A stretch of DNA of 7,870 bases from Nocardioides sp. GTDB lineage: Bacteria > Actinomycetota > Actinomycetes > Propionibacteriales > Nocardioidaceae. Under the pieces are notes generated by a model. It had not been told where the DNA came from, made no database searches, and was given only the letters and a program-made list of their open reading frames with translations. The stretch's first letter is position 1. Every line of letters begins with the position of its first letter. Both the position numbers and the translations under genes were made by a program. Positions 1,350 to 7,870 of the stretch are shown piece after piece. The DNA lies in NCBI GenBank assembly GCA_023252065.1, contig JAHEXO010000082.1, positions 1-7,870 of the forward strand. Reading direction: 5' to 3'.

Positions 1350-1396
1350 TGTCAGGAAAAGTTGACAACGCGGCATTACGTCAGGTTTACTTGACA
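1350..1396. promoter_or_regulatory. Twin operator-like palindromes over the HTH/Clp-N promoter
   Basis: Two related 18-base palindromes are present: TGTCAGGAAAAGTTGACA (1350-1367) and CGTCAGGTTTACTTGACA (1379-1396). Both fit YGTCA-GGWWWAST-TGACA, and their centres are 29 bases apart. The right half of the first overlaps TTGACA (1362-1367), a perfect -35 hexamer. The core of the second holds TTTACT (1386-1391), a reasonable -10 with an 18-base spacer. The GTG start of the HTH gene at 1399 follows the -10 by seven bases, so the transcript is probably leaderless. A protein bound at both sites would cover the whole promoter. The small HTH protein encoded just downstream is the obvious candidate binder, which is inference. 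Confidence 0.7.
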
Positions 1397-1398
1397 CA

Positions 1399-1623
1399 GT
1401 GATCGACGCCACCCGGCTCCCCGGGCTCTCCGAGTCCGCGGCGAGCAGCGATCCCGCCCAGGGACTCGCCGCTGTCCGAGCTCTCCGCGCGCTGGCCGAC
1501 CGCCTCGAGGCGGTCCAGGTCCGCAACGCACGCGAGCAGGGCTGGAGCTGGCAGGCGATCGCCGACGTGCTGCAGATCAGCCGTCAGGCCGTCCACCAGA
1601 AGCACTCACGCGACTCCGCCTGA
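1399..1623 (+). CDS. Small helix-turn-helix DNA-binding protein
   Basis: This 74-aa protein is mostly helical. Residues about 22-46 form an amphipathic helix (LAAVRALRALADRLEAVQVR) that could dimerise. Residues about 49-69 read GWSWQAIADVLQISRQAVHQKH, a clear helix-turn-helix with WQAIADVLQ as the support helix, ISRQ as the turn and start of the recognition helix, and a basic end. Such short HTH proteins are common in actinobacteria directly upstream of stand-alone Clp N-domain genes. The start is GTG at 1399. No ribosome site precedes it; instead a -35/-10 pair ends seven bases before it, suggesting a leaderless message. The Clp-N gene follows after 36 bases with its own strong ribosome site. 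The likely role is repressor of its own operon through the two palindromes upstream; nothing in the sequence proves the target. Confidence 0.8.
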   Translation: MIDATRLPGLSESAASSDPAQGLAAVRALRALADRLEAVQVRNAREQGWSWQAIADVLQISRQAVHQKHSRDSA

Positions 1624-1659
1624 GACCAGGGGAGTCACCCACCTTTCGAGGAGAACCCC

Positions 1660-2358
1660 ATGAACACCCGTTTCGACACCGAAGCCAGGATCGCCGTCAC
1701 CCAGGCGGCAGACATCGCCCGCGAGCTCGGCCACCGCGAGGTCGGTCCCGACCATCTCCTGCTCGGCCTGCTCGCCAACCCGCGCGGCACGGCGTACGCC
1801 GCGCTGACCGAGCACGGCCTCAGCCTCGACCCCGCGCGCGACCTCGTCGCCCAGACCCGTGTCCAGACCCACGTCGACCCCGTCGACGAGCCGGAGCCGG
1901 GCGAGGAGCCCGAGACCTCGGCCTATGACGACGACCGCGAGGCCCTGCGTGCCATCGGCATCGACCTCGACCGCGTCCGCGACGCCGTCCGGGCCAACCT
2001 CGGCCAGGACCTCGGTGACGGTTGGGGCGACCGCCCCGAGCGCCGTCGCCAGGGTCGCGGCCGCCGAGGCGGCCATCACCACGGGCCTCACCACGGGCCT
2101 CACCACGGCCGCGGCCGGCGCGGGCCGCGGAGCGGCCGCGCCGACGGACCGCGCTTCTCGCGCTCGCTACGCGCACTGCTGAGCGACGTACGCCGCTCGG
2201 TGCTGCGCGACCGGCTCGGTGACCAGCCGGACGACGCGAGCAGCATGTCCGGCGCCCGCCTGCTGGCTGCGCTGGTGCGCAGCGACGACCCGACCGTCCA
2301 GGCCGTGCTCGCCACCGCCGACGACCTCGCCGGACTGCGTGCCGCCACTGCTGGCTGA
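1660..2358 (+). CDS. Stand-alone Clp N-terminal-domain protein (ClpC2-like)
   Basis: This 232-aa protein resembles the double-repeat N-domain of ClpC/ClpA but has no AAA+ ATPase module: no Walker motifs occur anywhere. Repeat one is residues 5-68 (FDTEARIAVTQAADIAREL, then GHREVGPDHLLLGLL). A segment at 92-115 (ALRAIGIDLDRVRDAV) matches the linker usual in actinobacterial members. Repeat two is 166-227 (RFSRSLRALLSDVRRSV, then GARLLAALV), where the usual EH before LLL is replaced by AR. Between the repeats is a basic, histidine- and glycine-rich stretch (126-160) with seven histidines at 139-149. ClpC N-domains dock adaptors, phospho-arginine substrates and cyclomarin-type antibiotics. Mycobacterial ClpC2/ClpC3 are known stand-alone versions that bind cyclomarin. 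The start has GAGGAGA (1648-1654) five bases upstream. The stop codon lies inside an intergenic repeat unit. It is probably co-transcribed with the HTH gene. The domain is certain enough; the sponge or sensor role is inferred. Confidence 0.82.
   Translation: MNTRFDTEARIAVTQAADIARELGHREVGPDHLLLGLLANPRGTAYAALTEHGLSLDPARDLVAQTRVQTHVDPVDEPEPGEEPETSAYDDDREALRAIGIDLDRVRDAVRANLGQDLGDGWGDRPERRRQGRGRRGGHHHGPHHGPHHGRGRRGPRSGRADGPRFSRSLRALLSDVRRSVLRDRLGDQPDDASSMSGARLLAALVRSDDPTVQAVLATADDLAGLRAATAG
2077..2108 (+). repeat. 12-base tandem repeat encoding HHGP units
   Basis: The unit CACCACGGGCCT occurs twice perfectly (2077-2088, 2089-2100), followed by a partial third copy (CACCACGG). In frame it encodes HHGP-HHGP-HHG, giving seven histidines in eleven residues with the preceding HIS codon. 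The unit length is a multiple of three, so copy-number change would keep the frame. It lies in the linker between the two Clp-N repeats. Confidence 0.85.
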
Positions 2359-4991: not shown

Positions 4992-5013
4992 CGCCGTCCG
5001 ACGCTCAGGGCGC
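4991..5013. terminator. Weak shared hairpin between convergent stops
   Basis: GCGCC (4991-4995) can pair with GGCGC (5009-5013) across a 13-base loop that contains the space between the lipoprotein stop (4989-4991) and the TetR stop (5007-5005). A bidirectional terminator is expected here because the genes converge with only 13 bases between them. The stem is short and has no T-run. Confidence 0.22.
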
Positions 5014-5682
5014 CTCGGCCAGCGGCACGCCCTGGTCGGCCAGGGACCGCAGGCCCGACAGGATGAACCCGATCGCCAGCTCCACGCGGGCGGCCTGGGC
5101 CTCGCTGTCCTCGGCGCTCGAGACCGTCGACCCGGCCGACGACATCGCCCCGAAGAAGATGCGGGCGAAGGTCTGCTCGAGGTCGTCGTCGACCAGCCAG
5201 TGGCCGGCGGCCAGCACCGACCGGACGATGTCGAGCACGTAGGTGAAGGTCGAGCGCACCTCCTGCTCGCGGAACCGCTCGTAGCCCAGCACCGACGGAC
5301 CGTCCTGCACCACGATCCGGTGGTACGCCGGCTGCCGCACGACGTCGAGGAACGCCCGCAGGCCCGCGATCGCCTTCTCCCAGGGGTCGTCGTGGTCCTG
5401 GAGGGAGTCCGCGATGGCGCGGGCGCCGGAGGCCTCGACCTTCTCGAAGACCGCCTCGAACAGCGCCTGCTTGCCCGAGTAGTGGTGGTAGAGCGCGCCC
5501 TTGGTGACGTCGGCGCCGGCCACGATCGCGTCGAGTGACGTCGCGGCGTACCCGTGCTCGGTGAACAGGTCCTCGGCCACGTCGACCAGCGCCCGCCGCG
5601 TCGAGGCGGAGTACTGCGAGCGGCGGCTGGTCCCGGGGACAGGAGGCACCGCGGCCAGGCGGTCCTGCGCGCTCTTGGTCAT
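5005..5682 (-). CDS. TetR/AcrR-family transcriptional regulator
   Basis: This 225-aa protein has an N-terminal TetR DNA-binding domain at about residues 27-75: STRRALVDVAEDLFTEHGYAATSLDAIVAGADVTKGALYHHYSGKQALF. The HTH falls in TSLDAIVAGADVTKGALYHHY, and KGALYHHYSGK is the family signature. The first 26 residues are an extra flexible tail. The C-terminal helices (about 85-215) form the ligand and dimer domain, whose ligand cannot be predicted. The start at 5682 lacks a ribosome site but has TAGACT six bases upstream, suggesting a leaderless transcript. It is divergent from modA across 156 bases and could control modABC, itself, or a distant target; molybdate operons are not usually TetR-controlled, so the link is open. 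Confidence 0.9.
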   Translation of the reverse strand: MTKSAQDRLAAVPPVPGTSRRSQYSASTRRALVDVAEDLFTEHGYAATSLDAIVAGADVTKGALYHHYSGKQALFEAVFEKVEASGARAIADSLQDHDDPWEKAIAGLRAFLDVVRQPAYHRIVVQDGPSVLGYERFREQEVRSTFTYVLDIVRSVLAAGHWLVDDDLEQTFARIFFGAMSSAGSTVSSAEDSEAQAARVELAIGFILSGLRSLADQGVPLAEAP

Positions 5683-5838: not shown

Positions 5839-6594
5839 ATGCGTTCTCTGGCCCGCCGCACCGTGGCCGCCACGGCCGTCCTCGTCTGCTCCGTCGCTCC
5901 GCTGACGGCCTGTGGCGGCAAGGGGGACACCACGATCACCGTGCTGGCCGCCTCGTCGCTGACCGGGACGTTCACCGACCTGGCCGGGCAGTTCGAGAAG
6001 GCGCATCCCGGGGTGAAGGTCACCTTGGCGTTCGACTCCTCGGCCACGCTCGCCCAGCAGGCGTCGGGAGGCGCGCCGGCCGACGTGCTCGCGACGGCCG
6101 ACACCGCCACCATGGACAGCGCGAAGTCGGTGCTCGCCTCGACGCCGAAGAACTTCGCGACGAACGTCATGGTGCTGGTCACCCCGCCCGACAACCCGGC
6201 CGGCGTCACGACGTTCGCCGACCTGAACTCCGCCAAGGTCAAGTACGTCGTGTGCGTCGACACCGCGCCGTGCGGCAAGGTCGCCGGGGCGCTCCTCGAG
6301 CAGGACCACATCACGGCCGAGCCGGTGAGCACCGAGGTCGACGTGAAGAGCGTGCTGGCCAAGGTGACCGAGGGCGAGGCCGACGCCGGCATCGTCTACA
6401 CGACCGACTCCGTGTCGGCCGGTGATGCCGTCAAGACTATCGCGATCCCGGGCTCCTCGAAGCAGGTCACGACGTATCCCATCGCCACCCTCGACCAGTC
6501 CAAGCAGTCGGCCCTGGCCCAGGACTTCGTGGACCTCGTGCTTTCCAGCCAGGGCCAGCAGGTCCTCCACGACGCCGGCTTCGGCGCACCCTGA
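5839..6594 (+). CDS. modA: Molybdate ABC transporter substrate-binding lipoprotein ModA
   Basis: This 251-aa extracytoplasmic receptor captures molybdate (and probably tungstate) for the permease encoded next. It has a signal peptide with twin arginines near the start, and lipobox LTAC with lipidated C25. ModA family blocks are TVLAASSLTGTFTDLA (34-49, the oxyanion-binding serines), FDSSATLAQQ (65-74), GAPADVLATAD (78-88) and VDVKSVLAKVTEGEADAGIVYTTD (167-190, with the usual binding tyrosine Y187). Cysteines C139 and C145 in VCVDTAPCG may form a disulfide, a feature I associate with actinobacterial ModA. The start at 5839 has GGAG (5831-5834) four bases upstream and gives a proper signal peptide; the frame is open to 5773 but that part is the promoter. 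The stop overlaps the modB start by one base (TGATG). Confidence 0.93.
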   Translation: MRSLARRTVAATAVLVCSVAPLTACGGKGDTTITVLAASSLTGTFTDLAGQFEKAHPGVKVTLAFDSSATLAQQASGGAPADVLATADTATMDSAKSVLASTPKNFATNVMVLVTPPDNPAGVTTFADLNSAKVKYVVCVDTAPCGKVAGALLEQDHITAEPVSTEVDVKSVLAKVTEGEADAGIVYTTDSVSAGDAVKTIAIPGSSKQVTTYPIATLDQSKQSALAQDFVDLVLSSQGQQVLHDAGFGAP

Positions 6595-7409
6595 TGACCA
6601 CGCCGGAGCCCGCCACGACGCGCGGGGCGCTGGGCTGGATCCCGACGATCCTCCTCGTGCCGGCGGTGCTGGCGGCCGCTCTCCTCGTGGTGCCGACGCT
6701 GAGCCTGATGGTGCAGACGCCGTGGGGCGACTTCCTCAGCCAGGTGTCGTCGACGCCGGTGCTCCAGGCCCTGTGGCTGACGTCGCTGGCGTCGGTGGCG
6801 ACGGTCATCCTGTGCATGCTGCTCGGGACGCCGCTGGCCTGGCTGCTGGCCCGCGTCGAGTTCCGGGGGAGGTCGCTGCTGCGGGCGGCGGTGCTGGTGC
6901 CGTTGGTGCTGCCGCCGGTCGTGGCCGGCGTCGCGCTGGTCACCGCGCTCGGCCGGACCGGGCTGGTCGGGAGGTGGCTCTACGACTGGTTCGGGCTGAC
7001 CGTGCCCTACACGACGACCGCCGTGGTGATCGCCCACACCTTCGTTTCGATCCCGTTCTACGTGCTGAGCGTCGAAGGTGCGTTGCGGGCCTCGGGGGAG
7101 GAGCTCGACCTGGTCGCCGCCACCCTCGGCGCGGACCGCTGGACGACGTTCCGCCGGGTGACGCTGCCGCTGGCGATGCCCGGCGTCGTCGCGGGAGCGG
7201 CCCTGGCGTGGGCCCGGTCGCTCGGCGAGTTCGGCGCGACCATCACCTTCGCCGGGAACTACCCTGGCACCACCCAGACCATGCCGTCGAAGATCTACAC
7301 GGCGCTGCAATCGCAGCCCGACGTCGCCCGCACGCTGAGCATGATCCTGCTCGTCGTGTCCGTCGGCGTGCTCGCGCTGCTCCGCAACCGCTGGCTCACC
7401 CGCCCGTGA
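6594..7409 (+). CDS. modB: Molybdate ABC transporter permease ModB
   Basis: This 271-aa inner-membrane permease is made of hydrophobic helices. The clearest are at about 15-39, 58-86, 97-118, 141-160, 195-207 and 248-263, the six expected of ModB/CysT-type permeases. The cytoplasmic EAA loop that contacts the ATPase is at 169-193 (EELDLVAATLGADRWTTFRRVTLPL, with the invariant G179). It is followed by the ModB-typical ARSLGEFGATITFAGN (207-222) and TQTMPSKIY. It would form a homodimer. The ATG shares one base with the modA stop, so translation is coupled. modC starts 19 bases after its stop. Confidence 0.95.
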   Translation: MTTPEPATTRGALGWIPTILLVPAVLAAALLVVPTLSLMVQTPWGDFLSQVSSTPVLQALWLTSLASVATVILCMLLGTPLAWLLARVEFRGRSLLRAAVLVPLVLPPVVAGVALVTALGRTGLVGRWLYDWFGLTVPYTTTAVVIAHTFVSIPFYVLSVEGALRASGEELDLVAATLGADRWTTFRRVTLPLAMPGVVAGAALAWARSLGEFGATITFAGNYPGTTQTMPSKIYTALQSQPDVARTLSMILLVVSVGVLALLRNRWLTRP

Positions 7410-7428
7410 GACGGGCCGTGAGCGCGCC

Positions 7429-7870
7429 GTGACCGGGCTCAGGGCCCGGCTCGTCGTACCCGGTCGTCTCGATGTCGAGCTGGGTGCCGAGCCGGGTGAG
7501 GTGGTGGCCGTGATCGGTCCCAACGGCGCCGGCAAGTCGACGCTCCTCGCCGCCCTCGCCGGGCTGGTCGCCGTCGAGGGGGAGGTGATGGTCGACGGGG
7601 AGTCGTGGACCGACCCGCCGCGCACGGTCCCCGACCGTCGGGTCGGGCTGGTCTTCCAGGCCGGTCTGCTGTTCCCGCACCTGACGGCGCTCGACAACGT
7701 GGCGTTCGGCCCACGGTCTCGCGGGGTGGACCGCGCCGCCGCCGACGCGCTGGCGCAGACGTGGCTGGGGCGGTTCGGCATCGCCGACCTCGCCGGACGC
7801 CGTCCGGGGGAGCTCTCCGGCGGTCAGCGCCAGCGGGTCGCGATCGCCCGTGCGCTCGCCGCCGAGCCCG
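7429..7870 (+). CDS. modC: Molybdate ABC transporter ATPase ModC (3' end outside window)
   Basis: 147 codons are visible and the frame is open at the right edge. Walker A is GPNGAGKST (30-38). The Q-loop is Q77 in GLVFQAGLLFPHLTALDNVAFGPR, a stretch typical of ModC. The ABC signature is LSGGQRQRVAIARALA (129-144). Walker B, the switch histidine and any C-terminal TOBE (molybdate-sensing) domain lie beyond the window, so whether regulation by a TOBE domain is present cannot be said. The start is GTG at 7429. It is the only in-frame start codon between the modB stop and the Walker A region that gives a normal N-terminus. The ribosome site is poor, in keeping with coupling to modB. It supplies ATP-driven power to ModB. 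Confidence 0.93.
   Translation, partial: MTGLRARLVVPGRLDVELGAEPGEVVAVIGPNGAGKSTLLAALAGLVAVEGEVMVDGESWTDPPRTVPDRRVGLVFQAGLLFPHLTALDNVAFGPRSRGVDRAAADALAQTWLGRFGIADLAGRRPGELSGGQRQRVAIARALAAEP

Follow-up and report, generated by a model that had tools for sequence, protein, structure and literature searches.

A helix-turn-helix gene and a stand-alone Clp_N gene behind twin palindromes in Nocardioides: a candidate two-gene counterpart of ClpC2

Can a regulator of the ClpC2 type be divided over two genes? The question is raised by a 7,870-nucleotide (nt) stretch of high-GC, actinobacterial-type DNA from Nocardioides sp. (contig JAHEXO010000082.1; the whole stretch is called the window below), in which a gene for a helix-turn-helix (HTH) protein of 74 amino acids (1399..1623, plus strand, GTG start) is followed, after a gap of 36 nt, by a gene for a stand-alone Clp_N protein of 232 amino acids (1660..2358, plus strand, ATG start). 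Open reading frame (ORF) coordinates and Pfam agree with a preliminary description of these two genes, including the lack of AAA+ motifs in the second. According to PMC10030653, mycobacterial ClpC2 represses itself, cyclomarin lifts this repression, and the protein acts as a cyclomarin sponge that protects cells. Antibiotics act on ClpC, and ClpC2 is a natural defense against one of them, cyclomarin; with a common two-gene version, mutation and analysis can address DNA reading and ligand binding one at a time. We propose that the pair may be a split, autorepressed switch of the ClpC2 type, a reading that we consider about evenly balanced between right and wrong. Among the open-licence PMC papers listed by our literature search, we found neither the split pair nor the operator spacing rule reported here described before.

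Each of the two proteins has its homolog in one half of ClpC2, which supports the kinship proposed in the preliminary description: the HTH protein aligns with the N-terminal part of six fused ClpC2 proteins (hhalign E 6.8e-9), in an alignment that continues through the recognition helix, and the Clp_N protein aligns with the C-terminal part (hhalign E 4.7e-22). Like the window pair, ClpC2 (the Rv2667 family) combines an HTH/dimer part with a Clp_N double repeat and has no AAA+; it is, however, one polypeptide, whereas a stop codon and 36 nt separate the two genes here. The two ORFs share one frame in the window, with a single TGA and 12 sense codons between them; this frame relation differs from relative to relative, and the ORFs are separate in 62/62 intact relatives (counts from this seed set, introduced below, are among the matches listed). 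The match of the HTH profile to residues 37-72 of the ClpC2 crystal structure PDB 8ADA is weak by itself (E 0.019), and the crystal chain stops at the end of that match, just before the recognition helix. Dimerisation of ClpC2 has been placed in residues 4-72, with a D46-R57 salt bridge (PDB 8ADA; PMC10030653), and the equivalents are D/E34 and R45 in 63/63 HTH rows from the seed loci; of the 59 HTH rows from the operator survey below, six lack the anchor motif, and the remaining 53 have D/E in 48 cases and R in 43. Pfam returns only families below curated cut-offs for the HTH gene (best HTH_23, 3.6e-5), and the named proteins among the best 120 of its 851 database relatives are mostly labeled helix-turn-helix, hypothetical or sigma24. 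We rejected a sigma factor identity, as Sigma70_r4 reaches 19.3 bits against a cut-off of 24.1 and no region 2 is listed.

Upstream of the HTH gene we find two palindromes of the form GTCA-N8-TGAC, GTCAGGAAAAGTTGAC at 1351-1366 and GTCAGGTTTACTTGAC at 1380-1395, the sole matches to this pattern in the window, where 0.14 are expected by chance and two or more copies occur in 1/200 shuffles. The upstream palindrome is self-complementary at 8/16 positions, all in the outer arms, and the downstream one at 12/16; their start-to-start distance is 29 nt. From the pattern and the two palindromes in relatives we predict an upstream operator, TGTCA-N8-TGACA, at 1350..1367 and a downstream one, CGTCA-N8-TGACA, at 1379..1396 (no strand assigned to either). 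The right arm of the first includes a likely -35 element, TTGACA (1362-1367), and the second, which has the same position in relatives, would cover the -10 region and leaves 2 nt between itself and the start codon; TTGACA and the center of the second palindrome lie near the positions expected for -35 and -10. The preliminary description had placed a promoter under two matching palindromes. The palindromes stand; our consensus scan of the window scored no sigma-70-type promoter, so we infer the promoter from TTGACA and from the layout in relatives. The GTG follows the core of the second palindrome after 3 nt, a spacing that points to a leaderless message for the HTH gene. ClpC2 likewise has its start codon a few nt past a palindrome, usually two operators, and GTCAAC/GTTGAC half sites; its operators are given as CGTCAAC-n5-GTTGACG, often two, 1-2 nt before a leaderless ORF (PMC10030653).

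This arrangement is found well beyond the window strain. When species genomes were scanned with the HTH protein, at least 63 loci emerged, in genera including Flexivirga, Gordonia, Williamsia, Nocardia, Rhodococcus, Mycolicibacterium, Arthrobacter and Cellulomonas, and these served as the seed set for counting pairs, spacers and start codons. A Clp_N ORF lies directly downstream of the HTH gene in 62/63 loci, and 61 of these 62 intact loci have two palindromes (L061 has one). The spacer is 8 in all 123 palindromes of the 62 loci, though 7-10 was permitted, and the first in-frame start codon, which our script took as the HTH gene start, is 2-4 nt past the last palindrome in 61/62. Where the Clp_N start is usable, 48/57 loci have overlapping genes or a gap of no more than 10 nt. 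The exception, L063, lies in a Nocardioides metagenome-assembled genome (MAG); by eye, its HTH gene is shortened, Clp_N is gone, and a short-chain dehydrogenase/reductase gene resembling that of the window follows. In this decayed locus (L063:2980-3200) one operator runs directly into the 3' half of the HTH gene. Within the genus of the Nocardioides MAG (G012), 20/118 genomes have an HTH match at 1e-12, which marks the system as accessory; 13 of the 20 carry a strong HTH and Clp_N pair behind twin N8 palindromes, and a further two have a Clp_N-cyclase fusion. In such fusions (L282:464-1465 and L284:1748-2686), Clp_N is joined to a polyketide cyclase/AHSA1-like domain behind an HTH relative.

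We further searched from the operator side, surveying 396 genomes from the phylum of Flexivirga caeni (G001) for the arrangement seen in the seed loci, two GTCA-N8-TGAC palindromes separated by 11-13 nt. It occurs at 63 sites distributed over 59 genomes, and the reversed pattern has no match listed in the same survey; the overlap with the seed set is 2/63 sites with the same HTH ORF (L167 = L001, L177 = L043). By profile search, 53 of the 63 sites precede HTH and Clp_N in separate ORFs, 5 precede HTH without Clp_N, 5 neither (in one of these, L202, a longer relative of the HTH can be made out by eye), and none a fused gene. At 52 of the 53 split sites the first in-frame start is 2-4 nt past the palindrome, and at 52 the Clp_N match starts 212-316 nt past it, the earliest match in the 53rd being at 66. 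The survey thus extends the pair and its twins, supposed in the preliminary description to form one unit, to many more genomes.

With a spacer one base longer (N9), the same 396 genomes yield 40 sites in 36 genomes, and none with the reversed pattern. Of these 40, each of which we examined, 27 stand before one ORF that encodes both HTH and Clp_N (ClpC2), 3 before HTH only, 10 before neither, and none before a split pair. The ratio of split to fused is therefore 53:0 at N8 and 0:27 at N9, with the spacer fixed by the search pattern and related genomes counted more than once, so that a Fisher value is only a guide. Since the half sites are alike, it is the center, one base shorter in the window and its split relatives than in ClpC2, that goes with splitting. 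Ten genomes hold a split pair with N8 beside a fused gene with N9 (G119, G196, G228, G249, G271, G302, G314, G355, G365 and G391), from which we conclude that one base of operator spacing separates split from fused; they offer a natural test of whether such spacing insulates two paralogous repressors.

Which half reads the operators? The palindromes appear to follow HTH rather than Clp_N: 9/18 HTH genes that lack Clp_N still have two N8 palindromes, and four stand-alone Clp_N genes without this HTH (L098, L102, L104 and L105) have none. In our judgment, the HTH protein very probably owns the operators and represses its own operon. The result bears on ClpC2 itself, for which DNA contacts have been proposed on the Clp_N half, at R185 and R189 (PMC10030653); the comparative evidence points to the HTH. 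Three observations weigh on the other side. Arginine occupies the R189 position in 23/27 fused proteins vs 0/10 ClpC1, and R189 may matter in fused ClpC2. Equivalents of both R185 and R189 are kept in 8/53 split proteins, the window protein also having both. Finally, the 32 HTH loci with Clp_N from the same HTH searches have two N8 palindromes in 24 cases, one in 2 and none in 6, so the link between HTH and palindromes is not absolute among distant members. Two of the Clp_N genes without this HTH (L098:822-1541 and L105) represent another stand-alone family, in which an N-terminal KINVYLP-type segment, which we take to be ribbon-helix-helix-like, is fused to Clp repeats, with no GTCA palindromes upstream.

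The second gene encodes Clp repeat 1, an extra half repeat, a His/Arg/Gly-rich linker and a degenerate Clp repeat 2. Pfam scores one repeat (Clp_N, PF02861, residues 16-63, 2e-13; 50.7 bits vs a curated cut-off of 20.7) and finds no AAA+ family in the 232 residues. The predicted structure (predicted local distance difference test score 81) has ClpC1 N-domains as its nearest matches (6cn8, E 1.7e-4; root-mean-square deviation 11.9 Å over 229 columns, full length). The ClpC1 N-terminal domain also has two Clp_N repeats; ClpC1 carries AAA+ modules, whereas the split Clp_N is a separate short protein without them, behind its own palindromes. Conservation among the aligned split proteins is highest in D.EALRSIGIDLDAVR....FG, a stretch between the repeats (residues 88-118; codons 1921..2013, plus strand). 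A profile built from 33 aligned split Clp_N proteins (the A2 rows) finds, at 1e-3, 44/53 survey split Clp_N proteins and 0/27 fused ones, and also 6/10 ClpC1, where the second half of repeat 1 accounts for the match (E as low as 8.6e-7, vs 0.024 for the best shuffled control); we therefore identify the stretch as an extra half Clp repeat. ClpC2 lacks this feature, and members of the window's clade (Flexivirga, Williamsia, Gordonia and the window) differ from it further in a diverged pocket and in the linker (about residues 126-163; codons 2035..2148, plus strand), which has low confidence in the model. Within the linker, 12-nt repeats at 2070-2108 encode a His/Pro/Gly-rich stretch.

What this protein binds is less clear-cut than the preliminary description, with an antibiotic, a phospho-arginine protein or an adaptor as ligand, had it. 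Of F2, F80 and E89, named as critical for cyclomarin in ClpC1 (PMC10030653), the window protein has N, F and S, keeping the F80 equivalent alone. All three are kept in 16/33 aligned split proteins, comprising 16/21 outside the window clade (5/5 Nocardia and 4/6 Rhodococcus rows among them) and 0/12 inside it; in most Nocardia and Rhodococcus members the pocket residues are nearly identical to those of ClpC1. For this comparison we also used further ClpC1 positions that we presume to belong to the pocket. These residues weaken the ligand reading here and make cyclomarin an unlikely ligand in the window strain, where the pocket has diverged. For natural-product work the pair suggests a second inducible sponge in actinobacteria, whose ligand in this strain is probably not cyclomarin.

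In the split-switch reading, the HTH protein would read paired GTCAAC-N4-GTTGAC-type operators that overlie the promoter from which its own leaderless message is made, and a ClpC N-domain without ATPase would come from the second gene; both steps derive from comparison. The HTH protein would bind as a dimer through a D/E-R salt bridge, as in ClpC2, and repress the operon, and Clp_N would shield the ClpC protease as the half that binds ligands or clients. Once Clp_N is loaded with ligands of the ClpC N-domain, or with its misfolded or tagged clients, repression would be relieved and more Clp_N made. A protective or sensing role for Clp_N is somewhat favored. The least certain step is the coupling, in which Clp_N would act in trans by touching the HTH protein, perhaps through the extra half repeat; signaling of this kind seems to us slightly less likely than not. 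The broadest version is more tentative still: that actinobacteria carry a widespread, undescribed two-component ClpC2; that throughout the family, in ClpC2 as well, DNA is read by the N-terminal HTH, whose recognition helix is absent from the ClpC2 crystal; that one-base spacing keeps split and fused systems apart in shared cells; and that the extra half repeat relays a ligand signal from Clp_N to HTH in trans.

The main rival holds that the HTH protein represses its own operon unaided and responds to a signal that bypasses Clp_N (its own turnover by ClpC1P, for example, or another ligand), with Clp_N as one of several cargo genes and only a sponge or holdase. It is favored by HTH relatives that have the same palindromes and are followed by some gene that does not encode Clp_N; the HTH can therefore have operators without Clp_N. 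HTH relatives with twin N8 operators lie upstream of an ATP-binding cassette (ABC) exporter gene (L168 and L171, Pfam ABC_membrane; L169 likewise by eye), a Hydrolase_4-type gene (L124, L125), a beta-lactamase-family protein gene (L286) and a sigma factor gene (L285), and a GrpB protein gene (L127) follows an HTH relative that has one palindrome; in L122-L126 the two N8 palindromes are 40-44 nt apart. However, these HTHs score E about 1e-13 to 1e-22 in two HTH-profile searches, vs about 1e-31 or better for the strongest Clp_N-linked ones, a gap tempered by survey HTHs with Clp_N that score down to about 1e-22. The Clp_N partner in 62/63 loci closest to the window and the overlapping or near-abutting genes in 48/57 also argue against interchangeable cargo, and we rate this rival as somewhat improbable, slightly below even the broadest version above.

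A toxin-antitoxin-like pair, in which the HTH protein would be a DNA-binding antitoxin and Clp_N would inhibit growth by blocking the ClpC N-domain's clients, is far less probable. The HTH region of ClpC2 is shared with the antitoxin RelI of RelS-RelI (PMC13284704), the window HTH profile also matches PDB 9SDC (RelI context), and the patchy distribution and the one decayed copy would fit. RelS-RelI differs in its RelE-like toxin partner and in having the toxin gene first, and PMC13284704 reports no inverted repeats upstream. The partner here is a Clp_N protein rather than a RelE-like toxin, the closest relative, ClpC2, protects cells (PMC10030653), and searches with the window HTH protein matched nothing in the phage collection and 5 plasmid records. 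We did not assign the HTH protein to the RelI-type antitoxins: its neighbors are a HIT protein gene and the Clp_N gene (Pfam), with no adjacent RelE/BrnT-like toxin gene. That the two genes are unrelated neighbors behind chance palindromes is refuted, to a negligible residual probability, by the conservation of pair and twins in seed loci and survey.

Elsewhere in the window, a 50-nt direct repeat, 82% identical, lies over and behind the Clp_N stop codon (2347-2540), followed by copies that look inverted by eye; the whole looks like a dispersed intergenic palindromic element. A TetR-family gene occupies 5005-5682 on the minus strand, and at 5839-7870 an SBP_bac_11 substrate-binding protein, an ABC permease and an ATPase-like ORF follow one another in a row that we take to resemble a molybdate-type uptake operon.
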